Part shown: positions 10,785 to 44,480 of the stretch, in pieces
Numbering within the stretch: the stretch's first letter is position 1
Layout of the letters: each line of letters begins with the position of its first letter
Origin: Formosa sp. Hel3_A1_48
Lineage (GTDB): Bacteria > Bacteroidota > Bacteroidia > Flavobacteriales > Flavobacteriaceae
Direction: 5' to 3'
DNA: 64,000 nucleotides
NCBI RefSeq assembly: GCF_001735715.1
Contig: NZ_CP017259.1
Coordinates: forward strand, 186,001-250,000
Translations under genes and position numbers: made by a program
Notes under the pieces: generated by a model
What the model was told of the DNA's origin: nothing
The model's input: the letters and a program-made list of their open reading frames with translations, nothing else
Database searches by the model: none

Positions 10785-10805
10785 AAATTGGTGCTGTATG
10801 GAATT

Positions 10806-21111: not shown

Positions 21112-21122
21112 TGTTTTAAAAT

Positions 21123-22781: not shown

Positions 22782-22791
22782 AATCAAAACT

Positions 22792-26396: not shown

Positions 26397-28019
26397 TTAA
26401 TTTATTAAGTCATTAGTGTTAATTTCTCTTGTCGGCAGGGGTAAAAACATGATCTGAGAGGGGTCTTCACTTAGCGTCAAATCTTTGTTGTTAAAATTCA
26501 TAGATTGGCCGTCTGACAATCTTCTATTTGGAGTAATTGGATGCCAACTGCTAGGGTTATGAGGAATAATAATATGTTCTAAAAAATAATCAAAACCTCT
26601 ACGCCTATTATTATGTGCATCTTCTCCCTCACCGAGCAGCTCATAGCGGTATTCCTTCATTATTTTATTTCGAAAAGTCGTTTGATCCGCACTGGCATAT
26701 TCTGCATTACTTAATCCAGAACGGTCCAAAACCTGTGTAACATAATTTAATGCACCGGTTGAATTTCCCAGTTCATTGGAAATTTCAGCTAGCATTAGTA
26801 AAAGATCCGCATACCTGTAAACAATAATATTTTTACTGTCATATTGATTGCTATGTGTAATGTCTTTATTAGCGAATTTAAAAAGGTAAGGATGAGAATT
26901 TCCAAACCAACCTCTATTTCTTGAAGGATAAGTACGAACCCAGTTACCGACGTTATTAGGGTTATTACCATTGTTTCTATATTCACTCATATAAGTAGCA
27001 CCTTCGAGCCTTGGATCTCCTGGATAAGTTGTAAAATGATCGTCATAAAAATCTGCACCAACACTAAACCAACCAAAGCATTGTCCTGGTTTGTAATTGT
27101 TAGGGGTGTAATTTCTTCCCATCTGCGAATTTGTAGCAACTTGACTAATCTGCAGTTCAAAAATAGATTCTGTAGAATTTTCACCTTCTAAAGTAAACAG
27201 GGAAGCGTAATCAGATACCAACTGATATTGATCTAAAACTTGAATGGCTTGATCATAGGACATTTGCCAAAAATCAGAACCCAATAAATTATCTGGGATG
27301 ATGTCATAAGTAGTTGCATATTCATTACTAGCCATGGTCATATAAACTTTGGCCAAAAGCATATTAGCAGCATATTTCTTAGGATAGTAATACTGGTAAT
27401 CAATTTCTCCATCACCATTATAACCATCATACATCATATCAGCAGCAGCATTGGCATCTGCAATAACTTGCGCATAAACCTCTTTTGCAGGAGTCAATGC
27501 GTTCATTACAGCATCATGAGATGGCAAATCTAAAATTAATGGAATATCACCAAATAAACGCACCAACGAAAAATAAGACCAGGATCTTACAAAATGGGCT
27601 TGACCAACCACTTCTTTAAAAAGTTTGTCATTAGCTGAATTGCCATCAGGGTCATAATCTTGAACATTGGCGATTAAAGTATTTGCCCTTGCTATGGCTC
27701 TGTAAAAACCAAACCACAGTGCATCAGCATCACCATCATTGGCCTGTGGCTTTAATGAGAATAGATTTCTGTTATTTACATTATTTATATTTGGACCCTG
27801 TTTTCTTGTAACAAAAAAACCTGAAAAGCCATTTTGTACAAAAAGCCGTCTTTCTTGAGCTTGGTAATTTGCTAACCCCGCATAAACACCATCCAAGGTA
27901 GCTAAAATAGACATTGGGTCATTGTAAGCATTATCACCCAAATAAGGAGGATCTTCATCTAAGTCACAAGACGTAAATATGGTAAGGGCAAATAATAAGA
28001 ATATTTTTAAATTTTTCAT
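26397..28019 (-). CDS. SusD/RagB-like glycan-binding lipoprotein
   Basis: A 540-residue outer-membrane lipoprotein that binds glycans at the cell surface and acts as a lid on the SusC channel. Signal peptide with lipidated Cys18 (IFTSC), followed by DLDED, acidic residues typical of surface-exported Bacteroidota lipoproteins. SusD features: the N-terminal helix pairs (NAYNDPMSILATLDGVYAGLAN, WFGFYRAIARANTLIANV, GQAHFVRSWSYFSLVRLFGDIPLI) and the C-terminal YADLLLMLAEISNELG / RRGFDYF blocks. It lies 11 nt downstream of susC. The cognate glycan is inferred to be sulfated xylan or its oligosaccharides. Confidence 0.96.
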   Translation of the reverse strand: MKNLKIFLLFALTIFTSCDLDEDPPYLGDNAYNDPMSILATLDGVYAGLANYQAQERRLFVQNGFSGFFVTRKQGPNINNVNNRNLFSLKPQANDGDADALWFGFYRAIARANTLIANVQDYDPDGNSANDKLFKEVVGQAHFVRSWSYFSLVRLFGDIPLILDLPSHDAVMNALTPAKEVYAQVIADANAAADMMYDGYNGDGEIDYQYYYPKKYAANMLLAKVYMTMASNEYATTYDIIPDNLLGSDFWQMSYDQAIQVLDQYQLVSDYASLFTLEGENSTESIFELQISQVATNSQMGRNYTPNNYKPGQCFGWFSVGADFYDDHFTTYPGDPRLEGATYMSEYRNNGNNPNNVGNWVRTYPSRNRGWFGNSHPYLFKFANKDITHSNQYDSKNIIVYRYADLLLMLAEISNELGNSTGALNYVTQVLDRSGLSNAEYASADQTTFRNKIMKEYRYELLGEGEDAHNNRRRGFDYFLEHIIIPHNPSSWHPITPNRRLSDGQSMNFNNKDLTLSEDPSQIMFLPLPTREINTNDLIN

Positions 28020-28030
28020 TTTAATTAATT

Positions 28031-31000
28031 TTAAAAGTTAAGATTTACTCCAATAGATATTGTTTTTGCATCAGGTGAACCGTTCCAATCAACACCATTT
28101 CTAAGACCGTCGTAAGAAAAACTTGAGATTTCTGGATTGTAGCCACTGTAGTTGGTCCAGGTAAATAAATTTTGAGCTGTTACATAGACATTAAAACGGC
28201 TGAATAGACTGGTAGTTTCAACAGGTAAATCATAACCAACCGTAAGATTGTTTAGTCTCAAGAAACTTCCATCTTCAATAATCCGATCGGTAATGGCAGT
28301 GTCGCCAATGGTGTTATAACCAATTCTTGGATTTGTATTGGACTGTGCATCAGGTCGCCACGCATTGTAATATGCATCTGAACTAATGTTTTGAAATTGC
28401 CCCGCAGCATTACCAATAGTTAAAAGATTACCGTTGGCTATATCGTTTCCATAAACTCCATTAAAAAGCATTGAAATATTAAATCTTTTGTATCTAAAAT
28501 TTAAATTTAATCCGTATACAAAGTCTGGGTTTGGATTACCAATAAAGGTTCTATCATCATCATTGATTACACCATCTCCATTTTGATCTATAATTCTTGG
28601 ATCGCCGGGCTCAGCATTGCCTAAGATATCCGTGTCTTCTGTTTGATAAATTCCATTGGTTTCAAACCCATAAAAAAGGCTGGTTTCTTCACCCTGCACA
28701 AATACATTTGCAGGTGTTCGGAAAATTTGCCCATTAGAGATTCTATTCCCAAAAAAGAATGAACGCTGTTGAGCTTCTCCGTCAATATAAAAATCATCAA
28801 CAGGGACTCCAAGAGATAAAATCTTAGTTCTATTAAATGCAATATTACCTCCCAAAGATAGCTCAAGATCATCAGTTGAAATTAAATCAAAATCCAAGCC
28901 AAGTTCTACTCCTTTGTTAGAAATTTCTCCTTTATTTATAAGTAAATTCGTGTAACCACTTGATGATGGTATAGGGATATTTTGAAGTAAATCTTTTGTG
29001 GTCTTGTCATAAAGATCAAGTGTTCCTGAAATCTTTTCATTAAATAATGAAAAGTCTACACCAAAATTAATTTGCTCAGTGGTCTCCCATGTTAAATTAG
29101 GATTGGCTATGTTATTCAAGATAATTGGAATACTGAGGCCATTGACTGGGTCGCCATATTGCACGCCAGAACTTATGCCATAATTAGGTATGGTACCATA
29201 AGGACGTATACCATGGTTTCCAATTTGTCCCCATCCAGCTCTCAGCTTTAAATTGCTGATAAAATCAGAATTTTGAAGAAAAGGTTCATTGGTTACATTC
29301 CAAGCCAGTGCAAATGATGGAAAGAAACTATAGCGATTTGCCGATGAAAATTTAGAAACCCCATCACGTCTAAAAGATGCAGTGAATACATACCTGTTTT
29401 TATAAGAATAGTTTAGACGCCCTAAAAATGAAAAAACCTGTTGCTTAGAATATAAATATGTAAGCGGCGTATCAATAACAGAACCTAAATAAGGTTGATC
29501 TGTTGTAAGGTCTAATGCTACAAAATCTTGGACTGCATAGACACTGTTTTGATTATCTCTAACATCGTAAGTAAGTCCTAATGTCGCATTAATTCTGTGT
29601 TTCCTATTGAAGCTACGGTTGTATCTCAAAAGATTATTAACCTGATATGTTTTGGAGTCCAGTTCTGAAATCTGCAAAGCACCATTTGCATTTCTTCCTG
29701 CAAAAGTTGTCAATCCAAAAAATCGTCTTCGGTCTTTAATCCTAACATTTCCTCCGGTTCTGAATTGATAGCTCAAGCCTTTGATTGGTAATTTATAGGT
29801 GAGTGCAACAGATCCAATAAAACGTTTTTCTTTTGAAATATCTGTAAAATCATTGATCCAAGAATAAGGATTTGAAGCATCCAAATCTTCAACAAAACCT
29901 TCATCAGCTGAATTAACAATTGGTCTAAAAACAAGCGTACTTCGAACAAAGCTCTGATTCGCTGTACCAATAAGATCACCTGAATTGGCAAAATCCGTTT
30001 CAGTAAAAAAGGCCGTAGCACGCGCTTGTAGTTTTAAGTTTTTGTTGAGGTCTTGGTTTAAGTTTATTCTTAAATCTCCTGACTTAACTCCTGAGTTTGC
30101 AACAATCCCGCTTTCATCTCCTATACCACCAGAAATATAATAATTGCCATTATCACCACCACCAGAAGCTGAAAAGCCGAGTCTTTGACTCATCGTTTGA
30201 TCATAAACAATCTGTTGCCAATCAAAATATTCTAACGGATTATCACTAGCATTAGGACCTGTCGCATAAACATTACCACTATTATCTATTTCATAAGGAA
30301 AATCTTGATTTCCATTATTAATTTCCCATGCCTCGTTCTGATATCTTGCATACCCAACGCCATCCAACATATCATATTTTTTTCGAATACTTCTAAATGT
30401 TGTTGTGTGGAATGCATTAATTTTCACATTGCCTTTTTCCCCTTTTTTAGTCGTAATTAATACTACACCATTAGCTCCTCTTGAGCCGTAAATTGCTGTG
30501 GCTGAAGCATCTTTTAAAATTTCAATACTTTCAATATCTCTAGGGTTGATGCCTGTGAGACCGTTTTGTACTTCTTGACCGTCATTTCCAAGACCTCCTG
30601 TATGTACTACATCCTCTCCTGCTGATGCAATAATAATACCGTCTATGACATAAAGAGGTTCATTATTTCCTCTCAAACTATTGGTCCCTCTAATTCTAAC
30701 GCTCACACCTGAGCCCAGGGCACTAGAGTTTTGAGATACTTGAACACCAGCAGCTCTACCCTGTAGGAGCTGATCGATTCCAGTAGTTTGATTAGCAATA
30801 TTTTCATCAACTTTGACAGAACTAATTGAACCCGTTACATCTTTTTTCAAAACCGTACCATAGCCTACAACAACAACTTCATCTAATTCTGCAGTGTCAA
30901 TTTCCATGGACAGACGCACCGTCGTCAAATCTGTGACATCTAACTCAATCGTTTGAAATCCAACATATGAAAAAACAAGCACTTGTTTTTTTGTAGCTTG

Positions 31001-31192
31001 GATTGTGATTGAAAATTCACCATCAAAATTGGTGACAGCGCCTAAATTATCTGTCCCTCTGACTTGAATTGTAACACCCGGAAGTGGTAATCCTTGGTCG
31101 TCATTGACTACCCCTGTAACTGTTTTAGATTGCGCAAAGATTGCCAGAGGCAGCAATAAGATTGCGATTAGAATTTTGAGTTTATTTTTCAT
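28031..31192 (-). CDS. SusC/RagA-like TonB-dependent outer-membrane transporter
   Basis: A 1053-residue receptor that imports oligosaccharides using TonB energy. Signal peptide 1-20, then a carboxypeptidase-like beta sandwich (VTGVVNDDQGLPLPGVTIQVRGT). Next come the TonB-box/signature region LDEVVVVGYGT, a plug domain (ITGSISSVKVDENI, QLLQGRAAGVQVSQNS, SVRIRGTNSLRGNNEPLYVIDGI, IEILKDASATAIYGSRGANGVVLITTKKG), and a C-terminal barrel ending SIGVNLNF. It is first in the operon SusC-SusD-GH30-three sulfatases, driven by the operator at 31258-31322, next to the divergent HTCS gene. Confidence 0.97.
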   Translation of the reverse strand: MKNKLKILIAILLLPLAIFAQSKTVTGVVNDDQGLPLPGVTIQVRGTDNLGAVTNFDGEFSITIQATKKQVLVFSYVGFQTIELDVTDLTTVRLSMEIDTAELDEVVVVGYGTVLKKDVTGSISSVKVDENIANQTTGIDQLLQGRAAGVQVSQNSSALGSGVSVRIRGTNSLRGNNEPLYVIDGIIIASAGEDVVHTGGLGNDGQEVQNGLTGINPRDIESIEILKDASATAIYGSRGANGVVLITTKKGEKGNVKINAFHTTTFRSIRKKYDMLDGVGYARYQNEAWEINNGNQDFPYEIDNSGNVYATGPNASDNPLEYFDWQQIVYDQTMSQRLGFSASGGGDNGNYYISGGIGDESGIVANSGVKSGDLRINLNQDLNKNLKLQARATAFFTETDFANSGDLIGTANQSFVRSTLVFRPIVNSADEGFVEDLDASNPYSWINDFTDISKEKRFIGSVALTYKLPIKGLSYQFRTGGNVRIKDRRRFFGLTTFAGRNANGALQISELDSKTYQVNNLLRYNRSFNRKHRINATLGLTYDVRDNQNSVYAVQDFVALDLTTDQPYLGSVIDTPLTYLYSKQQVFSFLGRLNYSYKNRYVFTASFRRDGVSKFSSANRYSFFPSFALAWNVTNEPFLQNSDFISNLKLRAGWGQIGNHGIRPYGTIPNYGISSGVQYGDPVNGLSIPIILNNIANPNLTWETTEQINFGVDFSLFNEKISGTLDLYDKTTKDLLQNIPIPSSSGYTNLLINKGEISNKGVELGLDFDLISTDDLELSLGGNIAFNRTKILSLGVPVDDFYIDGEAQQRSFFFGNRISNGQIFRTPANVFVQGEETSLFYGFETNGIYQTEDTDILGNAEPGDPRIIDQNGDGVINDDDRTFIGNPNPDFVYGLNLNFRYKRFNISMLFNGVYGNDIANGNLLTIGNAAGQFQNISSDAYYNAWRPDAQSNTNPRIGYNTIGDTAITDRIIEDGSFLRLNNLTVGYDLPVETTSLFSRFNVYVTAQNLFTWTNYSGYNPEISSFSYDGLRNGVDWNGSPDAKTISIGVNLNF

Positions 31193-31422: not shown

Positions 31423-34400
31423 ATGCGCGCAGGTATTATTTTAAACATTTTTGTTTTTTTTATTTTCAATCCAAGTCCAGTCATAGCTCAGCAAGACTAT
31501 GATAGTGTAAATTTTGAATCACTTGCAGAAGATATTGGAACGAGGGCTGTTTCTTGTATTATTAAAGACCACAAAGGAATAGTTTGGATTGGAACTCAAG
31601 GCAATGGCTTGAGTTCATTTAATGGCCATGAATTAAAGAACTATAAGCATATATGGGACGATGATAAAACAATTGACAACTCAGTCATTAATGTTATTTA
31701 TATAGATAAAAGTAATGATTTATGGGTCGGTACTGAAGAAGGCCTCAACCTATACAACAGGAACTTAGATCAATTCACATACATACCACTTAATGAACTT
31801 AATTCAAAAATTCAAATAAAAGCTATTAATGAAACAGATGATAACTCATTACTAATAGGAACGCACAGCTTCGGTGTTTTTAAGGTCAATAAAGAATCTC
31901 TTTTGAGCACAGCTGTGGTTTTAGAGAAAAATATAAATACCAACAGATTTCAAGTTAACAGTATTGAGACAACCAAGAGAGGTGCTATTTTAATTGGTTC
32001 AAACATAGGGCTACACGGATACAATCCGCTGAGCAATAGCATTAACCAAGCTGAATTTACAACACTTGGAGGTCGAAAAATCATTGAAAATCCAATACAA
32101 ACCATCTTCAACAAAAAAGACGGAAGTATTTGGCTAGGCACAGTAAGTGATGGATTGATTGAAATTTTGACTACCCCCACTAATTACTATGAGTTCAAAT
32201 ATCACACCATCACCAACAAACGAATCTTGACCTTGGACTCTAATGATGAGGGTTCTCTTTTTTGTGGAACCGAAAATGATGGCCTATTTATTCTAAATAA
32301 AGAAGGTAAAATCAACTCACTTAAATACGAAAGATCAAAAACTAAAGGCATTAAATCAAATTCAATTTGGTCAACATTTATTGATGATAAAAATAGAATA
32401 TGGCTAGGATATTTTAACCAAGGAATTGACATCTATGACAAAGAAAAAGAACGGTTTAAATCTATTGAAAGTATTCCAAACAAAGACCAATCGCTATACT
32501 CAAAGTCTGTTACAGCCATAGCTCAAGATAGCCAAAAACGTTTTTGGTTTGGAATTGCTGATGGTGGAGTTGATGTGTATGACCCCTTAACTGAAAAGTT
32601 TACACATCTAATTGATCAAAGCAATCCTATTGCTAAAGGCCTTACAAGTAGTAACGTGGTAACAGTTTACATCGATAAACGCGAAAATATATGGGTAGGT
32701 ACTTGGAATTCTGGTTTGTTTTTATTGGAAAAAGGGAAGAGCGTATTTAAAAATATTAACGTTGACAACAGCAATGGTGTTTTTAAATCCAATAGAATTA
32801 TGAGCTTTGCCGAAGATTCAATGGGAACCATATGGATTGGTAGTTTTTTAAGTGGTCTTTATTCATACAATCCAAAATCCAAAACGTTTATTCATCATCA
32901 AGAGCCAGCCCTAACAGAAAAATATATTGACACAAAAAATATCCGAAAAGTTTTAGTTGATCAAAGTGATAATATTTGGCTCGGCACTAGAACTGGTTTG
33001 TTCAAATTGTCAAATATCAATAATTACCCAAAAGTTGAATCATACAATGCACTCATCAATAAAACACTTAAAACAACTGCTAGCTTTAACGTAATTACGA
33101 CACTTTTTGAAGACCAAAACAATAATATTTGGATTGGCACCGATGGTTATGGTCTTTTCCAATTGAATCCAATAAAAAATACAACTAAGTGGTACAACAG
33201 CTCTGATAACTTCATTCACCAATCGATTACCTCATTTATCGAATCTGAACCAGGAATCTTTTGGTTTACGGGTGACAATGGTATGACAAAATTTGATTAC
33301 ACCGCAAATAACTTTACTAATTACAATACCCAAGATGGAATTCTAGCTAATAACTTCAACAAAAACTCTGTATATTTTTCAGAGGATGGCGTCCTATTTT
33401 TTGGTTGTAATAAAGGGATTAACTTTTTTGATCCACAAACAATAACAATAAACTATGATGTGCCAAAAGTCTATATATCAGATTTTAAGCTTTCCAATAA
33501 AAGCATAAAACCAAGCGATGAAAATTCTCCACTAAGTAAAGTTATTGGAGAAACTTCGAATCTTCAACTTAAGCACAATCAGAGTTTATTTACAATAGGT
33601 TTTTTTGGATTAAGCTACACGAACTCAAAGAATTTAGAATACGCCTATTATTTAGACGGGTTTGAGCCTGGTTGGAACTATGTTAAGAAAACCCGAAATG
33701 CAACATATACAAATATACCTCCTGGACGTTATGATTTCAAAGTAAAGGCTGCAAATTCAGATGGGATTTGGAATAATGACTACACATCTTTAGAGATTGA
33801 AATATTACCACCATGGTGGGAAACCAATCTTGCCTCCTTTATGTTTTTTGTACTTTTTTTAATTGTTATCTATAATATTTATAGATTCATTGATATCCGT
33901 GTGAAAGAACGGCTAGAAATAAAAAGAGAACGAGAAGAACGAAAACAACTTGAAGGTCTAAATGATAAAAAAATACAATTCTTTACTAATATCTCTCATG
34001 AGTTCAGAACCCCTTTGACACTCATTTTAAATCCATTGGAAGAAATTATTAAAAACACCAATTTAAAACTCCCGGACAGTATCAAGGAGAAACATAAAAT
34101 TATTTACAAAAACTCAAAACGCTTATCTAGACTAATAAATGAATTAATGGATTTTAGAAAGTTGCAATTTGAGAAAATGGAAGTTAATGTTTCTAAATTC
34201 GATTTAATTCCTTTTGCCCAAGAAGTAGCAAGTCATTTTGAAGAAGAAGCGATACAACGCAATATTGAATTGATAATAAAAAATAAAACAAACAACATCA
34301 ACATATGGGCCGATCCATCAATGCTTGAAAAAATTATTTTCAATCTTTTATCAAATGCTTTTAAGGCCACTCTAGGAAAAGGTAAAGTAGTGTTAGAAAT

Positions 34401-35556
34401 ACAAGAAACAAAAGGTGAAATGTATTTCCCTTTAATAAAAAATAAAAAGCTAACAAAAGCGGTATGCATAAGCATCACCGATAGCGGAATTGGAATAAAA
34501 GCAGAGGATTTAAATAAAATATTTTCCCGTTTTTTTCAGGTAAAGGAACTGGATAAGCAGTACTATGGTGGTACCGGTATCGGCCTAGAGGTTGTCAAAA
34601 GCTTTGTTGATTTACACAAAGGAAAAATTGATGTCAAAAGTAAAAATAATGTTGGTACAGAATTTAAAATTTATCTTCCAAAGGGAAATAAACACTTTAA
34701 TAAGGACCTATCAAACATGGATATAAATCCAGATACTTCAAATTTTGATCAAATCAATGACGTATTAGACGAGATTGATAGTATTGAGCAAAAAAAGCCT
34801 AAATCAAAGAAAACAATTCTTATCGTCGAAGACAATCTAGAACTTAAAAATTATGTCAAAAATGAACTTAAAGAACATTATAAAATTAAAACCGCAGAAA
34901 ATGGTAAAGAAGGCCTAGAAAAAGCACTTAAATTTATGCCCGATATGATTATTACAGATATAATGATGCCTGTAATGGATGGAATTGAATTTTGCAAAAG
35001 AGTTAAAAATGATATAAAAATTAGCCATATCCCCCTACTGATGATGACTGCAAAAGGGATGCAAATTGACAAAATAAAGGGGATAGATTCTGGCGCAGAT
35101 GCTTACATCACAAAACCATTCAACATGAGTGTGATGAAGTCACACATAAAACAACTTATTACAAGTCGTCAAATCTTATTTGAAAAATATTTTAATGGAA
35201 TTCAAAATAAAGATTTATCCAACACTACTTCTTTAGACAAACAATTTATCACAAATGTATTGGACTATATCCATAATGATATAGCTAATCCAAACTTAGG
35301 TGTTGAGCAACTAGCCGAGGAGCTGTTCCTTAGTAGAAGTAAACTCTACAGAAAAATAAAGGCATTGACAGGGGATACAGCTACTGAATTTATTAGAAAG
35401 ATTAGATTAGAGAAAGCTAAAGAATTATTAGAAAAAACAGATCTGACCGTAAGTGAAATTGGTTATAAAGTTGGATTTTCTTCTCCGTCTTATTTTACCA
35501 AATGTTTTAAAAATCATTTTGGTCGAATTCCAAAAGAAATAAGATTAGAAAAATAG
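31423..35556 (+). CDS. Hybrid two-component system regulator (HTCS) with AraC-type output
   Basis: A 1377-residue inner-membrane sensor-regulator. Signal 1-22; 14 beta-propeller blades (IWIGT/IWLGT-type repeats) and a Y_Y_Y domain form the periplasmic sensor for an oligosaccharide. One transmembrane helix lies at about 803-825. A histidine kinase follows with phosphoacceptor His859 (SHEFRTPLTL), then an ATPase domain with DSGIGI and GGTGIGLEVV. The receiver domain has Asp1137, phosphoacceptor Asp1179 (TDIMMPVMDG) and Lys1231. The C terminus is an AraC-type helix-turn-helix (LAEELFLSRSKLYRKIKALTG...VGFSSPSYFTKCFKNHFG). It lies divergent from susC and is the likely activator acting at the five operators described here. 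The ligand is presumably a xylan fragment. Confidence 0.96.
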   Translation: MRAGIILNIFVFFIFNPSPVIAQQDYDSVNFESLAEDIGTRAVSCIIKDHKGIVWIGTQGNGLSSFNGHELKNYKHIWDDDKTIDNSVINVIYIDKSNDLWVGTEEGLNLYNRNLDQFTYIPLNELNSKIQIKAINETDDNSLLIGTHSFGVFKVNKESLLSTAVVLEKNINTNRFQVNSIETTKRGAILIGSNIGLHGYNPLSNSINQAEFTTLGGRKIIENPIQTIFNKKDGSIWLGTVSDGLIEILTTPTNYYEFKYHTITNKRILTLDSNDEGSLFCGTENDGLFILNKEGKINSLKYERSKTKGIKSNSIWSTFIDDKNRIWLGYFNQGIDIYDKEKERFKSIESIPNKDQSLYSKSVTAIAQDSQKRFWFGIADGGVDVYDPLTEKFTHLIDQSNPIAKGLTSSNVVTVYIDKRENIWVGTWNSGLFLLEKGKSVFKNINVDNSNGVFKSNRIMSFAEDSMGTIWIGSFLSGLYSYNPKSKTFIHHQEPALTEKYIDTKNIRKVLVDQSDNIWLGTRTGLFKLSNINNYPKVESYNALINKTLKTTASFNVITTLFEDQNNNIWIGTDGYGLFQLNPIKNTTKWYNSSDNFIHQSITSFIESEPGIFWFTGDNGMTKFDYTANNFTNYNTQDGILANNFNKNSVYFSEDGVLFFGCNKGINFFDPQTITINYDVPKVYISDFKLSNKSIKPSDENSPLSKVIGETSNLQLKHNQSLFTIGFFGLSYTNSKNLEYAYYLDGFEPGWNYVKKTRNATYTNIPPGRYDFKVKAANSDGIWNNDYTSLEIEILPPWWETNLASFMFFVLFLIVIYNIYRFIDIRVKERLEIKREREERKQLEGLNDKKIQFFTNISHEFRTPLTLILNPLEEIIKNTNLKLPDSIKEKHKIIYKNSKRLSRLINELMDFRKLQFEKMEVNVSKFDLIPFAQEVASHFEEEAIQRNIELIIKNKTNNINIWADPSMLEKIIFNLLSNAFKATLGKGKVVLEIQETKGEMYFPLIKNKKLTKAVCISITDSGIGIKAEDLNKIFSRFFQVKELDKQYYGGTGIGLEVVKSFVDLHKGKIDVKSKNNVGTEFKIYLPKGNKHFNKDLSNMDINPDTSNFDQINDVLDEIDSIEQKKPKSKKTILIVEDNLELKNYVKNELKEHYKIKTAENGKEGLEKALKFMPDMIITDIMMPVMDGIEFCKRVKNDIKISHIPLLMMTAKGMQIDKIKGIDSGADAYITKPFNMSVMKSHIKQLITSRQILFEKYFNGIQNKDLSNTTSLDKQFITNVLDYIHNDIANPNLGVEQLAEELFLSRSKLYRKIKALTGDTATEFIRKIRLEKAKELLEKTDLTVSEIGYKVGFSSPSYFTKCFKNHFGRIPKEIRLEK

Positions 35557-35557: not shown

Positions 35558-37495
35558 CTAATTTTTTACAAATTTCTTTTCGACAATTGCTCTATTTTCA
35601 AATTCAACTTTAGCTATATAAACCCCATTTGACAGATGATTGACAGCAATTAAATTTGTGCGTTTTTTGGATACAATTAAACGCCCTGTACTATCGTATA
35701 TTTCAATATATAAAATTTTATGGGTAGTATTCAAAAATAGATTTTCTTTAACCGGATTTGGATATAATTTTAACTCTAAATCTAATGGAGGTGCATTGTA
35801 GCCAAGAGAATAATCTTCTACTAATACATCAAACAAATCCAAAAAATAGAGCCCTACATCCGCCCCCATCAAGACTTGAACCTGCACATTGGTTATGTTT
35901 TGAGGAACTATATATTCAAATGAATAATATTCATAAGAAGTGGACAAAGAAAACGCTGAGGAAGCTGTATAATAAGGATTGTTCAAATTATCCTCTGCTT
36001 TTATTCTAAGTTTTAATGATGTACCAAACGTTGGGGATTTTGCATAACAACCTATTGTAATTTTTTTGTTGGTTAAGTCTTGTTCATAATCAATGTTACT
36101 CAAAACAACTTTATTGTAGGTGTCTGAAGCTGTAACCTCAATTCTGGCAGCAGAACTTCCAGAAAAAACAGTGTCAGAATGTTCTGAAATTGTGGCTACT
36201 GCACTACCAAATGTATTGAAAGTCCAACTTGATGTTACACCACATTCAAAATCGGGATTTAAAATAATTTGTCCCGAGGTCGGACCATAGCATTCTGGCC
36301 ATATCCCATCCGCTAAAAGCGCTTCTTTTACGTCTTCAACCCAAACTCCTGTATCAGCATTTGAAGTGAATGGGTTATCAGTGCGTAGATGAATGGTCTT
36401 ATTGGACTTATTACCCGAGCACCATGCTGAAAATGAAAACCCTCTGTCTATGGCTTGTTCAGCAATATAGCGGTGGTACTCCACTCGATCAGAATTAACA
36501 GGTCCACCGTTATCTCCATAAACTCCTGTTTGATAATTATAGCCTCCTTCGTTATCCGCACCAAATTCTCCAAGTGTAATAGGGATACTGTTGTTTTCAG
36601 ACCAAGTTTTAACAGTATTAAAATGTGAGGTTACCGTTGATTTATCGTTAGTTGTTCCCCAATTAAAATCATTATTATTTGCTGTTGACGAGCTCGTAAA
36701 ATTAAAAGGGATATAATAATGAAATGAAGCTATTAAGTTTGCATCACTGTTTAGAACTGCAGCACCAATAGTGGTTGGTGCTTGATAGGAATTTAATGTA
36801 CCTCCTGTAATTATGATTGGACGTGTACTATTATTTCCGCCAGTGGATCTAATGGCCTCTATAATCATTAAATTGATTTCGTCCATCTCTTGTGCACTAA
36901 CTTCAAAATAAGGTTCGTTAACGACTTCAAAAATTAAAGTTGAAGGAGCGTTTACAAAACGATTTGCAATTTGAAGCCAAATAGATTTAAATTTCATTAA
37001 ATCCGCTGCTCGCTTTGCTGATGTTGGGTACGAATAATTATTGCTTTCAATATTAAAGGTCTCCAAAAATTTAGCTTTTAACTCTGCACCGTGAAAATCA
37101 ATAATGGTGTACAAACCCTGCCCGATAGACCAATTTACAACGGTTTCAACCCGATTCAAATAAGTTTCACTTACTAAAAAATCTGTAATGCCCCCATCAT
37201 ATTGATCAACAGTATTGGCATTTGATGACCATAGTGAAGTATCATCGCCTGTTGTTCGGGATCCAAAAAAATCCATTGGAATTCTGACATTAGAAAAACC
37301 AGCATCAGCAACATCAATAAAATATTGCTCGTAAACAACAGGTGCCCAATTACCTTCCACTGGAGCACTTAAAGTATTACCTAGGTTTACACCTCTACCC
37401 ATTTGTTCTACAATACCCCAGGAAGAAGTTTGTGCATTGATTAAAGAACTACCAAGCAGGCAAAACACTATTAATATTCTCTTTTGTTCTTTCAT
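35558..37495 (-). CDS. T9SS-secreted GH5 endo-glycanase with carbohydrate-binding domain
   Basis: A 645-residue protein from the chosen ATG (a 651-residue reading starts at 37513). Signal 1-22 (SSLINAQ). GH5 catalytic domain at about 23-395: GRGVNLGNTLSAPVEGNW, VRIPMDF, acid/base Glu194 in EVVNEPYFE and nucleophile Glu310 in LGEFGADNEG. Then a CBM-like jelly roll (about 405-555) and a T9SS sorting domain (LKLYPNPVKENLFL to the end). The LGNTL motif recalls the GH5 groups containing endoglucanases, xylanases and xyloglucanases; the true substrate is uncertain, with xylan suggested by context. Its start codon directly follows a strong hairpin and T tract (37496-37523). Confidence 0.88.
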   Translation of the reverse strand: MKEQKRILIVFCLLGSSLINAQTSSWGIVEQMGRGVNLGNTLSAPVEGNWAPVVYEQYFIDVADAGFSNVRIPMDFFGSRTTGDDTSLWSSNANTVDQYDGGITDFLVSETYLNRVETVVNWSIGQGLYTIIDFHGAELKAKFLETFNIESNNYSYPTSAKRAADLMKFKSIWLQIANRFVNAPSTLIFEVVNEPYFEVSAQEMDEINLMIIEAIRSTGGNNSTRPIIITGGTLNSYQAPTTIGAAVLNSDANLIASFHYYIPFNFTSSSTANNNDFNWGTTNDKSTVTSHFNTVKTWSENNSIPITLGEFGADNEGGYNYQTGVYGDNGGPVNSDRVEYHRYIAEQAIDRGFSFSAWCSGNKSNKTIHLRTDNPFTSNADTGVWVEDVKEALLADGIWPECYGPTSGQIILNPDFECGVTSSWTFNTFGSAVATISEHSDTVFSGSSAARIEVTASDTYNKVVLSNIDYEQDLTNKKITIGCYAKSPTFGTSLKLRIKAEDNLNNPYYTASSAFSLSTSYEYYSFEYIVPQNITNVQVQVLMGADVGLYFLDLFDVLVEDYSLGYNAPPLDLELKLYPNPVKENLFLNTTHKILYIEIYDSTGRLIVSKKRTNLIAVNHLSNGVYIAKVEFENRAIVEKKFVKN

Positions 37496-37523
37496 AAAAA
37501 AAGAGGAGACCATGGTCTCCTCT
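37496..37523 (-). terminator. Perfect 22-nt palindrome plus T7 tract immediately before the GH5 start
   Basis: 37502-37523 is a perfect palindrome (AGAGGAGACCA and its complement). On the minus strand its last T continues into six more T's, ending at the GH5 ATG at 37495. This has the form of an intrinsic terminator after the 112-residue gene. The left arm holds a Shine-Dalgarno-like AGGAG and the centre holds an alternative in-frame ATG (37513), so the hairpin could also mask translation initiation of GH5. Confidence 0.75.
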
Positions 37524-37887: not shown

Positions 37888-39207
37888 TTATTTTTTTAAG
37901 AATCGTTTTGATGTTGATTGACCGTTAATAGTCTTCATAGTTATTATATACATTCCTTTAGAAAGATTAGAGACATTAATCGTTTCAAAATTATCAGTTT
38001 TGCGAATTATTTTTTGTCCCAATAAATTATTAATTTGAATTTCTATTAAATCAATATTAGACTGTAAATTTAAAATATTATCCGTAGGGTTTGGATAAAT
38101 ATTTATTGAAGAAATATCTAATATTTGTGTTGATAATGTACCTGCACTAGCCCAATTTAAATAATAATCATCAACATAGTAAGTTGTTGAAGATTCTGGA
38201 AATTGTAAGATTGGATATATTTTAGTATCAGCAGCTAAAGAAGTTGCATCGACAACTGGTGAATATATTTTTGTCCATTGATTAGCTGGAATTGATGTAT
38301 CACTAAAATTATTTAAATTTCCAACTTTAAGATTAAACTTAACCGATGTAGCAGTAGGCGACTTAACCCAAACAGAACCTTGATATTCCCTTGCTGCTGT
38401 GGTTGTAGGATGTAAATATCGTATACCAAAACTTTCATTATCTTTAAATACCAATACTCCTCTTTGTGAGGCACTAGCATCAGATGTTGTAACATACTTT
38501 AAACTATGCAATCCACTGTGAACATTATCTAAATTATCTTCTAAACTTAGGGCTCCATAATTACCACCATTATATCCTTGATGTGCAAAGTAATTAGTAT
38601 AATCAACAAAAGCAGTTGTGCTATTAAGATTAAAGCCATCTCCTCTGTGTATACTACTTTCAACACTTGAATTTGGATTACCTTGACTCAAAGAAACATC
38701 ATCAATATAAAAAGAGGATGCACCAGTTGGAGCAAATCTTGGCTTGATTACATCACCTACAACAGCATCATAAAAAATAATCATATATTTCCAATCGGTA
38801 TCATTAAATGGAATAGTTGCCATTGAATATGTAAAAGAACCATTCGTACCTATTTTATAACCTGCCTTTATAGTAGTATTAGCTGTTGTTGCTTTAATCC
38901 AAAAACCAAAGAAATATCGACCTGGTTCAGTTATAGTTATTGAATTTGAAGGTGTGAAATATCCCTTATTACTTACTGTAGCAGTATATAAAACTGAATT
39001 TGTGGATAAATTACTGTGAGTGTTTGTTGTTTCTTGGGCGTAAGAAGACTGATTAGTACCATTATTTTCTAGTGTCCAACCTGTTAAAGAACCAGTATCC
39101 CAAGTGTCAAATTCTGCATTTGGTAAATAATTTTCTGTTTTTTCTTGAGCATTCAAATAAATTGAAAAAGAAAAAAACAAAATTGATAAAAAGTAAAAAT
39201 TTCTCAT
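37888..39207 (-). CDS. T9SS-secreted protein with two carbohydrate-binding-like domains, no visible catalytic domain
   Basis: A 439-residue secreted protein. Signal 1-20 (IYLNAQ). Two jelly-roll modules of the CBM4/9/22-like kind follow: about 24-175 (YLPNAEFDTWDTGSLTGW...FYIDDVSLSQG) and about 185-350 (GGNYGALSLEDNLDNVHSG...YYVDDYYLNWAS). The C terminus is a T9SS sorting domain (INIYPNPTDNILNLQS...GMYIITMK). No glycosidase, lyase or esterase motif is seen. It lies between an esterase (21 nt upstream) and the small secreted protein. A plausible role is surface capture of the polysaccharide, complementing SusD. The binding specificity is unknown. Confidence 0.8.
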   Translation of the reverse strand: MRNFYFLSILFFSFSIYLNAQEKTENYLPNAEFDTWDTGSLTGWTLENNGTNQSSYAQETTNTHSNLSTNSVLYTATVSNKGYFTPSNSITITEPGRYFFGFWIKATTANTTIKAGYKIGTNGSFTYSMATIPFNDTDWKYMIIFYDAVVGDVIKPRFAPTGASSFYIDDVSLSQGNPNSSVESSIHRGDGFNLNSTTAFVDYTNYFAHQGYNGGNYGALSLEDNLDNVHSGLHSLKYVTTSDASASQRGVLVFKDNESFGIRYLHPTTTAAREYQGSVWVKSPTATSVKFNLKVGNLNNFSDTSIPANQWTKIYSPVVDATSLAADTKIYPILQFPESSTTYYVDDYYLNWASAGTLSTQILDISSINIYPNPTDNILNLQSNIDLIEIQINNLLGQKIIRKTDNFETINVSNLSKGMYIITMKTINGQSTSKRFLKK

Positions 39208-39228: not shown

Positions 39229-40095
39229 TTAAATTTTGTATTGTTTTTTTATTGTTGACTCGCCTTCTAAATAGCCTAAAGAGACTAAAAAGCGGTCAAT
39301 TTCGTCAGTTGTTTCAATGAAATATTTCACAGGGGGTTTTGCAAAAAAAGCATGCCCTTGTCCTTCATATAAAACCACATCACAGCGATTACCAGATGAC
39401 TCCATTTTGGACTGGTATTTTTTCACGGTTGGCACTGGTAAAATTCTATCTTCTGTCCCCACAAGTATAATAGTTGGAGGTGCCTTTTTTGAAATATTAT
39501 GAATTGGTGAAAGTGATTTATAATCATGACCAAAACGCTTGTGGGCATAATGGTCAGGTCCTAAATCCAGTACAGGATTTAACAACACCAATGCATTAGG
39601 TTTTGAACTAATACTTAACTCCTCAGTAAGGTTATCCCACATTTTTAATAATCCACAACTTGCTGCTAAATGCCCTCCAGCAGATCCACCGCCAGCGGTT
39701 ATTGTATTGGGGTTGATCTTAAATTTATTGGCGTGTTTTCTAATGTATCTTAGAGCAGATTTTGCATCTTCAACAGCATCGTAAGGTGAGGTACCATGCG
39801 TATTTTTCAGCCTATATTCTGCCGAAATAGCTACCATCCCTCTAGAAGCAAAATACATCGATTGGCGTTTGAATGCCTTGTGATTGCCATTGTTCCAGCC
39901 CCCACCATGAAAGAAAATAATAGCATTGTGTATTTTCTGTTCATCAAATTTTTTGGGATTATAAACATGAAGTTTTAGAGTAATATCCTCAACAGTTTTG
40001 TAAACAACAGCGTTTGCATTAATAATTTCAGGAGCTGCATGAGAGAAAGCTGAAATAAGCAAAAATGAAAATATCATTGTTTTTAAAACATTCAT
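39229..40095 (-). CDS. Exported alpha/beta-hydrolase esterase (BD-FAE / acetyl-xylan-esterase-like)
   Basis: A 288-residue secreted esterase. Signal 1-20 (SAFSHA). Oxyanion motif FFHGGGW (61-67), nucleophile elbow GGGSAGG with Ser138, Asp216 in VGTEDRILP and His248 in GQGHAFF match the bifunctional feruloyl/acetyl-xylan esterase-like branch of the hormone-sensitive-lipase group. It is the first gene of the operon esterase, CBM protein, small protein, GH5. The -7 box at 40100-40107 is so close that transcription should begin near 40093-40096. The mRNA is therefore either leaderless at this ATG or translation starts at the ATG at 40077, which would give a signal peptide lacking a positive charge. 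Confidence 0.85.
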   Translation of the reverse strand: MNVLKTMIFSFLLISAFSHAAPEIINANAVVYKTVEDITLKLHVYNPKKFDEQKIHNAIIFFHGGGWNNGNHKAFKRQSMYFASRGMVAISAEYRLKNTHGTSPYDAVEDAKSALRYIRKHANKFKINPNTITAGGGSAGGHLAASCGLLKMWDNLTEELSISSKPNALVLLNPVLDLGPDHYAHKRFGHDYKSLSPIHNISKKAPPTIILVGTEDRILPVPTVKKYQSKMESSGNRCDVVLYEGQGHAFFAKPPVKYFIETTDEIDRFLVSLGYLEGESTIKKQYKI

Positions 40096-40196: not shown

Positions 40197-41792
40197 TTAA
40201 CGCTGATTCAAATTTTCTTCGTTGTATACCCGCTCGATAACAATGTCTGTCATTTTTCGCATTTCGTCTAGCCCTATATTATCTTTATATTTGATTTGAA
40301 GTGCTTTTAATTTTTTCTTTAGCTTTTTTATTAGTTTCTTATACTTGACATTTTCATATAAATTATTTACCTCATTGGGGTCATTATCCAAGTCATATAA
40401 TTCCCACTCGTCCATTGAATAATAAAAATGAATCAACTTAAAACGGTTGGTACGAATACCATAATGCGGTTGTACCTTATGCCATTTGGGATATTCGTAG
40501 TAATGATAATATACTGCGTCTCGAACATCACTAGTTTCTAAATCCAATTGAGAAACAAAACTTGTGCCTTGCATGTCCTCTGGAACAGAAATCCCAGCTA
40601 ATTCCAACATAGTGGGTGCGAAATCAATATTCAATAATAAATTAAAATTAACTGTACCTGGTTCAATGCGTTTTGGGTATGAGATCATAAAAGGCATTCG
40701 AAAAGACTCTTCATACATCCAGCGCTTATCAAACCACCCGTGCTCACCCAAATAAAATCCCTGGTCAGAGGTGTAGATAACAATAGTATTTTCGGCCAAT
40801 CCACTTGCTTCCAAATAATCGAGCATCTGCCCTACAGCCTTATCAACCCCTGCTACACAACGTAAATAATCCTTAATATAAGTTTGGTATTTCCAGTTTT
40901 TCAAGGCAGCTCCTTGCAACGTATCTGATGGGGTCCAAAACTGACCTTGATTACCATAGGAATAATAATCATTCAATTCTCGCTTGTTGAGTCCATCTGG
41001 TGGTGGTATTTTTAAATCACGACGATTCATGTGGTTTTCAATCTCCATCCATTGGTCTTTTGCTGCTTTTCTCCCCTCATAATCATCATTAAAATTTGGA
41101 GGATGAGGAAAATCACCGTCGTTAAAAAGCGAATGAAATTCTTCCGCTGGCTCCCATGGTCGGTGCGGCGCCTTAAACTGATACATCAGCATAAAGGGTT
41201 TTTCTTTATCACGTTCATGATCCAACCACTTTATGGCATCATGAGCAACTTGTGCAGTTGAATGACGCTTGCGCTCAACAATTGTATCCTTTCCATTTTC
41301 CAAAAAAACAGGGTTAAAATAAGTACCCTGCCCACCCCAATTAATCATCACCTTAGAATAGTCAAACCCCGTAGGATTTGTCCCTAAATGCCATTTTCCT
41401 ATCACAGCGGTTTCATATCCTGATTTTTGAAATAGCTTGGGAAATGTCATTTGGCTACCATCAAAATCTCCTCCTTTTTCATTCTTAAAAAACCCATTTA
41501 CATGACTATACTTTCCGGTCAAAATTGAGGCTCGACTTGGACCACAAATAGAATTGGTATTAAACGTTCTGGTCATTAGCATGCCATTTTCGGCAATGCG
41601 ATCAATATTTGGAGTAGGCGCCAATTCTGCCAGCCAGTCTTGGTAAGCACTTACGGCACTAACGGCATGATCGTCAGACATTATAAAAACAATATTAGGG
41701 CGACTATTGGATGATAAATCAACGTTCGTATTAGTTTGTCCGTTGCAATAGGAAATTACAAGTAGAGAGAATAAAATTTTTAATTTTTTCAT
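40197..41792 (-). CDS. Sulfatase (family S1)
   Basis: A sulfatase of 531 residues from the chosen ATG (41798 is an alternative two codons upstream). Signal peptide ends near YCNGQ. Metal site IMSDDHAVSA, formylglycine motif CGPSR (Cys83), ILTGKYSHVNG, and YTSDQGFYLGEHGWFDKRWMYEESFRMPFMISYP form the conserved blocks of the large arylsulfatase-A-like group that acts on algal polysaccharides. It lies 111 nt downstream of the sulfatase-GH10 gene, on the same strand, and is probably co-transcribed. A -7-like box (41839-41846) may add a separate promoter. Confidence 0.92.
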   Translation of the reverse strand: MKKLKILFSLLVISYCNGQTNTNVDLSSNSRPNIVFIMSDDHAVSAVSAYQDWLAELAPTPNIDRIAENGMLMTRTFNTNSICGPSRASILTGKYSHVNGFFKNEKGGDFDGSQMTFPKLFQKSGYETAVIGKWHLGTNPTGFDYSKVMINWGGQGTYFNPVFLENGKDTIVERKRHSTAQVAHDAIKWLDHERDKEKPFMLMYQFKAPHRPWEPAEEFHSLFNDGDFPHPPNFNDDYEGRKAAKDQWMEIENHMNRRDLKIPPPDGLNKRELNDYYSYGNQGQFWTPSDTLQGAALKNWKYQTYIKDYLRCVAGVDKAVGQMLDYLEASGLAENTIVIYTSDQGFYLGEHGWFDKRWMYEESFRMPFMISYPKRIEPGTVNFNLLLNIDFAPTMLELAGISVPEDMQGTSFVSQLDLETSDVRDAVYYHYYEYPKWHKVQPHYGIRTNRFKLIHFYYSMDEWELYDLDNDPNEVNNLYENVKYKKLIKKLKKKLKALQIKYKDNIGLDEMRKMTDIVIERVYNEENLNQR

Positions 41793-41903
41793 ACCCATGT
41801 TATTTAAAGGATTAATTAAATATGTTCAGTCTTTAGCTCAAAGCTACAACTGCAGTACTGTATCGATATAAAGGGGCAAAATTTGATTAAAAGATTATAG
41901 GTT

Positions 41904-44480
41904 TTATTGATTGTTTGTCAAAGCTTTTTTAATTATACTATAAGCTGGTGTAGGTTCAAAATTAGAATCGTATATGGATTGGAAATAAATATCGGGTTTT
42001 TTAAATCGCTCACCCATATCCCATAAATTCAGAGTAACCACACCAGAATTAACTTTAGATTGTAAAACATTTACTATTTTTTGATAAATAATAGCTTGTG
42101 TTTGAAATTCCTTAAGTAAATTTGATTTATCAGCTATTTTATAATCCAATTCCGTAATGTGAAAATCTAAATCATTGGCATGAGCCCAATCTATTAAGTC
42201 TGATAATTCCATTAAAGCTTGATCTGTTTTTTCAATAAAATTAGCTGTAGTTTTACTTAACTTTAAATGACCTTGCCAGCCAATTCCATCTACACGAAGA
42301 CCCTTACTTCTGAGATAAAGGATAGTTTCTTTAACCTTGTCCCACATGGGTTTTTGCATGCCAGCGTTTTGATTGTATACTAACTTGACGTTAGGTGCAT
42401 GTTTCGTTGCTATTTCAAAAGCTTTTACGATATAATTCGGAACACCATTTTCGTCTAGTCCCATAGTTAGCCAAGGGTTTTCCCAGCGATCGGTTCCTGG
42501 TTTTGGACCAAACCAACTGCCATCAGGTAAAATAGTTTCATTGACTACATCCATGTAATGTACCGTTGATTCTTCGTTATAGCGTTTGGCTGAAGCTGTC
42601 ATAAATTCAATCATAACATCCTCTAACTCTTCTGCTGTCCTATGGTCTTCCTTAGCCCATTTTGAAGCTTGTGGGCTGATGGGACCATGAATGCGAACAG
42701 AAAGATTGTGAGTTTTTGAAAACTCTAGAAACTCATCTATTCTATCCCATTGCCAAACACCCGGTCTAGGATATACACGTTGCTGTTTAGCAGCATTTGC
42801 AGGACATAAGAATTTAAAGTCTTTCAAGAAAAGTTCTTCTTCCTTACCTCCAAGTTCATGATGGTTTAGAGTGGCTCCTATCAATAGTTTATTTTCAGAA
42901 GCTTTTACTAAATCTTTTATGGGTGTATTACTTTGAGTGTTGAAAAAATTAGCCGCTAGTTTCTGAAATCGTTGAATCAAAGATTTTGATTTTTCATCTT
43001 CTGCAAGATTAACTGTTTCTGCTGGGTCTATTTTGTAATCATAGAGTTCTTCAGCAAAAATATCTTTTTCAAAAACAGGATCTGTGCTTTTCTTTCCATT
43101 AAGCCATACCGTATAGCGGTAGCGGTCAGTCCTAAAACTATATCCTGTTTTTTTAGCATTAGTCCATTGACTAACCGCAAAAGGCTTTACAGATATTTGT
43201 TCGCCCCTAACTAATGGCATTAAATTTTTTCCATCTAAGTTTTCTGGTATTTTAAACCCAGTAGCAGCACAAAGTGTTGGAAAAATATCAACAAATTCTG
43301 TTGGTGATTTAATTTGTATTTTTTTATTAACTCTTGGGTCTAAAATAACAAGTGGTGAACGGGTAGCTTGCTCAAAATTCGAATGCTTATTCCACAGACC
43401 ATGATCGCCCAAATGCCATCCATGATCGCCCCAAATTACAATAATCGTATTTTTATCCAAACCTGTTGTTTTTAGCTTATCCATAATTTTACCAATTTGC
43501 GCATCAATAAAACTAGTACTGGCATAGTATCCATGGATCAGATCTTTTTGAAATTCATCAGAAAGTATTACTCGATTGCTGTTTGAAACTTCATATGAAA
43601 TTTCTGGAGTGATATAAGATCTCAGTTCTCCAGAGCTATGATAAGCTATTCTAGGACCATTTTTAGAATTCTGTTGAAATTCATTGATTTTAAATTTTGA
43701 TGGATCATACATGTCCCAATAGCGCTTTGGTGGCGTAAATGGCAAATGAGGCCGCTTAAATCCAACAGCTAAAAAGAATGGTTCACTAGATTCTAATTTA
43801 TATTCATCAAGAAATTTATTGGCGTATATTGCCAAAGCGCCATCTACATAAGCATCGTCTGGGGCATCAGTCTTTTCGAAAGGGGGTTTAAATGTATCTC
43901 TTAAATATTTTCCTAAATTTTTAACCCCATTAGCTTTTGCTTCATTTCTTAATTCTTTAATATGTGCTTTAATTTTTGGGTCTTGGTAAAACCCCATAGC
44001 AGGTGGACCATAGTCACTAGGATAGTCAAATTTGTGTTCAGGCATGTATGGGATAGACCATGAGGGTTTATCTCTAAATTGATCTACACAGCGAGGATCA
44101 AAAATTTTACCTAGTCCAACAGTTGTGTAGCCGTTATCTCTAAAGAATTGAGGAATGGTAACAATGTCTGGAACCATATCGCGCATCTTAGTTTTTAAGT
44201 CTCTAACCTTTGTATAGTCCGGACGCTTTCCAGTCATTAGACTGGCACGAGCTGGACCACAGACAGCTTGTTGGGTGTGGTTATTTAAGAAAACTGTACC
44301 GTTTTCAGCTAGTAAATCAATGTTTGGAGTGCGTGCTAAATCGTCTCCAAAAGCACCAATAGTTGGCTTCAAATCATCAACCGCAATGAAAATAATATTT
44401 GGAGAAGAATTTGAAACCTGAGCCTGAATTAAACCACAAAAAAAGAAAAATAGAAAAGTAAATTGAATTGTTTTAGTCAT
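41904..44480 (-). CDS. Fusion of an S1 sulfatase and a GH10 xylanase domain
   Basis: A two-domain protein, 858 residues from the ATG at 44480. A longer reading starts at a TTG at 44501 inside the -7 box, so it is rejected. Signal ends GLIQAQ. Sulfatase domain: AVDDLKPTIGAFGD, formylglycine Cys74 in CGPAR, and GDHGWHLGDHGLWNKHSNFEQATRSPLVI. After about residue 525 a full GH10-like barrel follows: LLIGATLNHHELGG, acid/base Glu648 in MDVVNET, DGIGWQGHL, and nucleophile Glu777 in HITELDY. The usual GHxLVWHxQ motif is altered to IHGPISPQ. The reading frame is continuous across the junction. Likely role: binding or cutting xylan near sulfate groups while removing them. Its own HTCS-type operator lies upstream. 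Confidence 0.92.
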   Translation of the reverse strand: MTKTIQFTFLFFFFCGLIQAQVSNSSPNIIFIAVDDLKPTIGAFGDDLARTPNIDLLAENGTVFLNNHTQQAVCGPARASLMTGKRPDYTKVRDLKTKMRDMVPDIVTIPQFFRDNGYTTVGLGKIFDPRCVDQFRDKPSWSIPYMPEHKFDYPSDYGPPAMGFYQDPKIKAHIKELRNEAKANGVKNLGKYLRDTFKPPFEKTDAPDDAYVDGALAIYANKFLDEYKLESSEPFFLAVGFKRPHLPFTPPKRYWDMYDPSKFKINEFQQNSKNGPRIAYHSSGELRSYITPEISYEVSNSNRVILSDEFQKDLIHGYYASTSFIDAQIGKIMDKLKTTGLDKNTIIVIWGDHGWHLGDHGLWNKHSNFEQATRSPLVILDPRVNKKIQIKSPTEFVDIFPTLCAATGFKIPENLDGKNLMPLVRGEQISVKPFAVSQWTNAKKTGYSFRTDRYRYTVWLNGKKSTDPVFEKDIFAEELYDYKIDPAETVNLAEDEKSKSLIQRFQKLAANFFNTQSNTPIKDLVKASENKLLIGATLNHHELGGKEEELFLKDFKFLCPANAAKQQRVYPRPGVWQWDRIDEFLEFSKTHNLSVRIHGPISPQASKWAKEDHRTAEELEDVMIEFMTASAKRYNEESTVHYMDVVNETILPDGSWFGPKPGTDRWENPWLTMGLDENGVPNYIVKAFEIATKHAPNVKLVYNQNAGMQKPMWDKVKETILYLRSKGLRVDGIGWQGHLKLSKTTANFIEKTDQALMELSDLIDWAHANDLDFHITELDYKIADKSNLLKEFQTQAIIYQKIVNVLQSKVNSGVVTLNLWDMGERFKKPDIYFQSIYDSNFEPTPAYSIIKKALTNNQ

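Follow-up and report, generated by a model that had tools for sequence, protein, structure and literature searches.

We analyzed a 64,000-nucleotide stretch of the genome of Formosa sp. Hel3_A1_48 (contig NZ_CP017259.1, positions 186,001 to 250,000), which we refer to as the window. One gene in the window (41904 to 44480, minus strand) encodes an 858-amino-acid protein in which an S1 sulfatase is joined to a barrel of glycoside hydrolase family 10 (GH10). We think it fairly probable that this fusion is a bifunctional enzyme, exported by Sec and probably periplasmic, of a polysaccharide utilization locus (PUL) for a sulfated, xylose-rich glycan. The fusion is conserved in many related loci, and both of its active sites depart from the usual residues.

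A sulfatase and a GH10 barrel in one reading frame

The gene, which we assigned from its open reading frame (ORF) and from Pfam, starts with an ATG at 44480, ends with a TAA (41904 to 41906), and has no internal stop codons. A TTG at 44501 is an alternative start, which would make the protein 7 amino acids longer; we preferred the ATG because it gives a better signal peptide, as judged by eye. The sulfatase domain (residues 27 to 510; 42951 to 44402, minus strand) is nearest to 6HHM, a member of subfamily S1_7, and to human iduronate-2-sulfatase (IDS). The GH10 barrel (residues 529 to 852; 41925 to 42896, minus strand) was identified from Pfam, alignments, and a predicted structure. Within the sulfatase domain, PF00884 (Sulfatase) matches residues 27 to 408 (E = 1.2e-42; profile positions 1 to 300 of 301) and SGSH_C matches residues 358 to 507. 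PF00331 (GH10) matches residues 529 to 852 (E = 4.2e-40; 138 bits versus a cut-off of 22.1; profile positions 7 to 310 of 311).

We also modeled the protein with AlphaFold2, using as input an alignment of 40 fusions (this one and 39 relatives), which left out fusions at contig edges, those containing X, and those under 800 amino acids. The model has a mean pLDDT of 84.7 and a pTM of 0.63. Its N-terminal half resembles 6HHM (Z = 43.8; 2.1 Å over 437 residues) and human IDS (5FQL; Z = 40.7), and its C-terminal half resembles the GH10 xylanases 1vbr and 3nj3 (Z = 38.1; 2.1 Å over 310 to 315 residues). Thus, the original prediction, which was made from the DNA sequence alone, was right that one in-frame protein contains both a sulfatase and a GH10. 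The three catalytic residues that it named are also where it placed them: Cys74 (in AVCGPARAS), Glu648 (in DVVNET), and Glu777 (in ITELD).

The fusion in related loci

We scanned public genomes with an alignment of the GH10 domain and considered the best 80 loci of the 231 stretches that encode a relative. The fusion is present in 49 of these 80 loci: 47 are plainly fused, one contains a fusion with two stand-alone copies, and one is at a contig edge, where the visible N-terminal part is sulfatase. The other 31 loci contain only an unfused GH10. So the architecture, for which the original prediction had proposed a search, does recur in other genomes.

One of these loci (L051) is on a separate contig from a metagenome-assembled genome and encodes the same 858-amino-acid fusion, with 98% identity. 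The genome of Hel3_A1_48 is itself a single contig of 2,016,454 bp. Together with the 49 fused loci, this effectively rules out that an assembly error joined two genes: although the two genes are separate in some related loci, we found nothing in favor of this explanation and give it almost no credence.

Within the family to which Hel3_A1_48 belongs, GH10 domains of this clade were found at E ≤ 1e-30 in 23 of 397 genomes (Hel3_A1_48 included). There were 25 matches, of which 9 are in frames of 860 to 887 amino acids and 16 are in frames of at most 473 amino acids, one with an internal stop. A stand-alone GH10 copy in genome G071 (L011 / L042, 9461 to 10561) has a stop codon inside.

An aspartate replaces an active-site histidine of the sulfatase

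The formylglycine motif C-x-[PA]-x-R is present as C74-G-P-A-R (Cys74, 44259 to 44261, minus strand). Cysteine is found at this position in all 45 of the fused sequences that have a residue there; the other 4 of the 49 are gapped. Cys74, Arg78, Lys125, His245, Asp352, His353, and Lys365 are invariant in the 40 aligned fusions, and Asp35 and Asp36 are kept in at least 90% of them. We take D35, D36, R78, K125, H245, D352, H353, and K365 to have the same roles in the metal and sulfate sites as their counterparts in IDS.

According to phmmer, the nearest solved structure is 6HHM (E = 8.9e-79), followed by IDS (E = 2.8e-66). 6HHM is P18_S1_7 from Formosa agariphila, which a review (PMC9096561) describes as an endo-2-sulfo-D-xylose sulfatase that takes part in ulvan degradation. 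Unlike the sulfatase of the fusion, P18_S1_7 is a stand-alone protein from an ulvan pathway, and it has a histidine, not an aspartate, after GK-x-x. The fusion does not have the active-site histidine three residues after the lysine (K-x-x-H in IDS and 6HHM); instead, it has Asp128 (44097 to 44099, minus strand), which aligns with the histidine of 6HHM and with what we take to be His138 of IDS. IDS presumably uses Lys135 and His138 to remove 2-O-sulfate (we numbered these residues by counting along the printed alignment).

This replacement is a property of the whole group. Aspartate is found in all 51 sequences with a residue at this position (45 fused sequences and 6 close stand-alone relatives; 4 fused sequences are gapped), and Arg130 is invariant in the same group. 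In contrast, all 11 paralogues from the sister clade have histidine. Four more distant sulfatases have D, H, A, and L. Hence, the claim that the protein contains a complete S1 sulfatase holds for the domain, the fold, Cys74, and the other expected residues, but not for the active-site histidine. Because of Asp128, we describe this half as S1_7-like rather than as canonical S1_7. Judging from its sequence, it is a distinct branch that probably still catalyzes a reaction, though its chemistry or specificity may have changed, and it offers a natural test of what this histidine does in S1 sulfatases.

The fixed aspartate in the fusions and the histidine in the sister paralogues would also fit a pseudo-enzyme: the change might have abolished turnover, so that the domain now just binds a sulfated glycan and brings the GH10 to it. 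However, the seven invariant residues listed above argue against this, as a domain that only bound glycan would have no use for the formylglycine cysteine. Furthermore, in 8 of the 49 fused loci, a gene for a formylglycine-generating enzyme (FGE) is the direct neighbor of the fusion and is transcribed divergently from it. We consider a pseudo-enzyme to be improbable. In the genome of Hel3_A1_48, the FGE-sulfatase family has 5 matches, 4 of them over the cut-off, and one of these FGE-domain genes lies about 0.5 kb past the end of the window (genome positions 250536 to 251465).

The GH10 half has lost a typical motif

The acid/base Glu648 (42537 to 42539, minus strand) and the nucleophile Glu777 (42150 to 42152, minus strand) are nearly universal in this clade of GH10: glutamate is found at the first position in 82 of 83 sequences (the other has an X) and at the second position in all 83. 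Asn562, Lys565, Asn647, Glu648, Gln736, His738, Glu777, and Trp820 are invariant in the 40 aligned fusions; we take the residues other than the two glutamates to correspond to Asn44, Lys47, Asn126, Gln203, His205, and Trp273 of Cex from Cellulomonas.

In its fold and its catalytic glutamates, this half resembles canonical GH10 endo-xylanases (1vbr, 3nj3), but three features set it apart. First, where canonical enzymes have H-x-L-x-W-H-(N/S)-Q, the fusion has HGPISPQ (residues 598 to 604; 42669 to 42689, minus strand); that is, the canonical segment GHTLVWHNQ corresponds to IHGPISPQ. The motif WH(N/S)Q, which is typical of GH10 but not strictly defining, is absent from all 83 clade sequences, which have serine or glycine in the aligned histidine column. 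The same loss is apparent in five alignments to solved xylanases (two of which appear to be one enzyme). Second, when we aligned 12 clade members with six canonical GH10s from the window and the related loci, the second tryptophan of the canonical cleft loop was absent from the clade members. Third, the loop after the acid/base glutamate is nine residues longer in these 12 sequences. We presume that the canonical histidine and tryptophan at the lost positions make contact with the glycone-side sugar. Thus, the description of this half as a full GH10-like barrel with both glutamates is accurate for the fold and the glutamates, but the barrel differs from that of a standard xylanase.

The loss of WH(N/S)Q is shared with 34 unfused sequences, so it is older than the fusion or independent of it. 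We also considered a change of E43 to alanine as a hallmark of this GH10 and dropped it: the residue is alanine in 23 of the 49 fused sequences, glutamate in 21, and methionine in 5.

History of the fusion

On the GH10 tree, the label of fused or unfused changes 9 times, versus a mean of 26.6 times if the labels are shuffled. (The count falls to about 8 if L116 is corrected; it was scored as unfused, yet its contig-edge start encodes the C terminus of a sulfatase.) In five loci (L074, L077, L078, L080, and L083), a separate sulfatase gene is directly upstream of a stand-alone GH10, with a gap of 4 to 258 bases. These sulfatases are 58 to 61% identical to the fused half, and the GH10s have their own signal-peptide-like N termini (by eye). 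In both trees, the split sequences nest among the fused ones. In 11 other loci, the GH10 is near a different sulfatase paralogue, which has the histidine.

Most likely, the two parts became fused on one or a few occasions, and several later events split them or removed the sulfatase half. This direction depends on the root, for which we chose five stand-alone GH10s as the outgroup. The trees are from quick searches with SH-aLRT support only and have several long end branches; in the sulfatase tree, joined long branches were flagged. Our first trees left out two fragments of the stop-containing copy from G071 and one sulfatase fragment, and the sulfatase tree left out sequences of under 330 amino acids and one paralogue. 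In the first trees, the sulfatase halves of nine fusions formed one clade and the GH10 halves did not, so we considered whether the GH10 half had been swapped in Formosa. We gave up this idea because, with 83 GH10 and 68 sulfatase sequences, an old fusion with repeated losses and splits is the simplest explanation.

The pairing of the same two proteins in split and fused form is good evidence that they would work together, though not proof of one shared site. Alternatively, the two domains might act at different places on the polymer, with desulfation uncoupled from cleavage, and the fusion would only equalize their amounts. Fused and unfused forms do alternate on the GH10 tree, and the GH10 is only unfused in 31 of the 80 loci, as uncoupled domains would allow. 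On the other hand, the separate genes are still adjacent in five loci, and both active sites have changed across the clade. Overall, we view uncoupled domains as unlikely, although well short of negligible.

Export

Residues 1 to 20 (44421 to 44480, minus strand) look by eye like a signal peptide, with predicted cleavage between CGLIQA and Q. The tag of the type IX secretion system (T9SS) was not found: Pfam's Por_Secre_tail does not match the window's fusion, and none of the 40 aligned fusions has a T9SS tag at E = 1e-5. Four other proteins of the PUL do have the tag (those beginning at 35558, 37888, 24192, and 17226). A Sec signal peptide without a T9SS tag makes the periplasm the likeliest place for the fusion, and it is probably exported there. 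We therefore rejected secretion to the surface by T9SS; the protein was expected to be secreted, which agrees with the signal peptide, but probably only as far as the periplasm.

Substrate and proposed function

The gene for the fusion sits at an edge of a large PUL that also includes SusC and SusD, glycosidases, sulfatases, transporters of the MFS and SSF types, an esterase, and xylose genes. The make-up of a PUL for sulfated xylan (SusC/D, GH10, GH43/GH30/GH3, and sulfatases) is found in the window, which contains four further S1 sulfatases besides the fusion. Across the 49 fused loci, a further sulfatase is found in 38 and a GH3 in 34.

It had been claimed that the fusion directly implies a sulfated xylan backbone. 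A sulfatase-rich PUL with xylose genes, and a sulfatase that is nearest to a xylose-2-sulfatase, make such a backbone plausible. The claim was overstated, however, since the fusion would also fit sulfate on side residues or a different sulfated glycan that contains xylose. In particular, the substrate might be a xylofucan, a xylomannan, or an ulvan-like glycan instead of a beta-1,4-xylan: the glycone side of the GH10 is remodeled, GH29 is found in 2 of the 31 loci with only a stand-alone GH10, and the nearest characterized sulfatase (6HHM) acts on ulvan, according to the review (PMC9096561). Against this, the window encodes a canonical GH10, a GH43, and proteins that we read as XylA and XylB, and the genome has no matches to PF07470 (GH88/105) or PF17389 (GH78). 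As a control, we searched 14 genomes and found matches over the cut-off for PF17389 in 2 and for PF07470 in 3. Ulvan is thus an unlikely substrate in this strain, although the ulvan lyases themselves were not scanned for. We consider another xylose-containing glycan to be rather unlikely.

From the architecture, its conservation, the active-site departures, and the content of the PUL, we infer the following scheme for a sulfated, xylose-rich glycan. T9SS-tagged enzymes at the surface (the GH5, the GH30/59-like hydrolase, and the beta-helix protein) would cut the polymer, and SusC/D would take in sulfated oligosaccharides. In the periplasm, the formylglycine sulfatase of the fusion would remove a sulfate, most likely from O-2 of xylose, because 6HHM and IDS are both 2-O-sulfatases. 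The remodeled GH10 would then hydrolyze a beta-xylosidic bond nearby. The GH43, and a GH3 in many relatives, would finish the conversion to xylose, which the XylA- and XylB-like enzymes would consume.

Several observations weigh against this scheme. The GH10 is unfused in 31 of the 80 loci. The sulfatase has lost an active-site histidine and the GH10 has lost its glycone-side motif, so neither sulfatase activity nor the cutting of xylan is assured. We placed the protein in the periplasm because it has no tag and because we recognized a signal peptide by eye. Within flanks of up to 10 kb, just 9 of the 49 fused loci contain genes for xylose catabolism and 17 contain SusC/D.

A bolder idea, which is possible but which we hold only tentatively, is that both active sites are co-adapted to sulfated xylose and that the fusion founds a new type of enzyme. 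The sulfatase branch would work with aspartate and the invariant Arg130 instead of histidine. In the GH10, the removal of contacts of the His80 and Trp281 type would have made room for a glycone-side sugar with a sulfate or another bulky substituent. Sulfated rather than plain xylan would then be what the GH10 cuts, and the sulfatase would clear the end that the cut exposes.

In the literature that we surveyed, sulfated xylans are predicted substrates of abundant bloom bacteria and are not chemically pinned down. A fusion predicted to have two activities, along with its single-site mutants, would be a direct probe of the xylan of phytoplankton or algae: whether it is sulfated, at which carbon position, and by what sequence of steps it is broken down.

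Comparison with published systems

The architecture is not new, because it is already in print as a prediction: the accessible text of Krüger 2019 (PMC6794258) reports "a sulfatase domain-containing GH10" in PULs for sulfated xylan. As described there, those PULs are from the same clades (Formosa, Aurantivirga, and Polaribacter), follow the pattern GH30, sulfatases, GH10, and GH43, and contain a GH3 and further sulfatases. The window differs in that the GH3 and one of the sulfatases beside the fusion are absent, and the prediction, in that text, comes without residue analysis. In Kappelmann 2018 (PMC6298971), PUL136 of Formosa sp. Hel3_A1_48 is described as a "sulfated beta-xylan" PUL, and SusC/D related to those of PUL136 were expressed in a 2009 bloom. 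Like the window's locus, PUL136 is xylose-rich and bears sulfatases, and the two are probably identical. P36, an S1_25-GH78 protein from a marine Flavobacterium, likewise combines a sulfatase with a glycosidase, with a different sulfatase subfamily, a different glycosidase, and ulvan as its substrate (PMC8511951).

We found no assays of a sulfatase-GH10 protein in the open-licence PMC literature. This agrees with the original prediction, whose author was aware of no characterized pair. As far as our searches of that literature reach, both active-site departures, the split forms, and the FGE neighbor are new.

Other genes of the PUL

The genes described here are on the minus strand unless stated otherwise, and most were identified with Pfam. 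Next to the fusion is an S1 sulfatase (40197 to 41798) with relatives in 28 of the 49 fused loci, followed by a BD-FAE-type esterase (39229 to 40095). The adjoining T9SS-tagged protein (37888 to 39207) has no other Pfam domain and is possibly glycan-binding; it is 89% identical to a protein of the same-genus locus L028 and is a candidate for a new glycan-binding protein. Next are a GH5 with a CBM_4_9 and a T9SS tag (35558 to 37513), a hybrid two-component regulator (31423 to 35556, plus strand), a SusC-like transporter (28031 to 31192), and a SusD-like protein (26397 to 28019). The GH30/GH59-like hydrolase (24192 to 26378) also has a CBM_4_9 and a T9SS tag; Pfam identifies it as GH59, and we read it as GH30 from the published PUL pattern.

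Three further S1 sulfatases lie at 19666 to 24192. In the sulfatase at 19666 to 21111, the formylglycine site is C-G-A-S-R and not C-x-P-x-R; C-x-A-x-R sites can be matured by a radical-SAM type of enzyme. The rest of the PUL includes the beta-helix protein (17226 to 19526, with a CBM_4_9 and a T9SS tag), the canonical stand-alone GH10 (16053 to 17207), and the GH43 (13566 to 14597). An SSF transporter, a TIM-barrel protein that we read as xylose isomerase (XylA), and an FGGY kinase that we read as xylulokinase are at 6277 to 10808. The XylA reading comes from a Pfam match just below its cut-off.

We scanned 30 of the window's 40 ORFs of at least 150 amino acids with Pfam. The other ten are beyond 47125, except for 14079 to 14558, which is the opposite strand of the GH43 gene. 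None of the 30 contains a GH3, and three GH3 matches are found elsewhere in the genome. In the Formosa-like loci L028 and L052 to L058, a GH3 follows the fusion, and those contigs that extend far enough also have a further sulfatase ahead of the relative of the sulfatase at 40197. Neither that GH3 nor that further sulfatase is present in the window (41798 to 41904 region) or in L051, which is nearly its twin.

Variation among the related loci

For the neighbors of the related loci, we made a Pfam tally of 92 representatives of 179 complete, unlabeled ORFs of at least 200 amino acids; it lists 25 of 142 families and so excludes nothing. In Lutibacter agarilyticus (L076, 8432 to 13300), the fusion is followed by two stand-alone GH10s whose N termini look lipoprotein-like by eye. 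The uncultured loci L059 and L060 are close to fused sequences and are without the sulfatase half; a GH3 and two other sulfatases are beside their GH10. Some of the loci from L036 to L046 contain, along with a stand-alone GH10, a distant GH10 of about 580 to 590 amino acids (for example, L036, 15998 to 17758). These distant GH10s, and a GH29 in L036, hint at a different, perhaps fucose-bearing, substrate. Finally, the fusion in L127 (8399 to 11473; 1025 amino acids) has an added C-terminal CBM_4_9, and its neighbor is a stand-alone relative of this sulfatase half.

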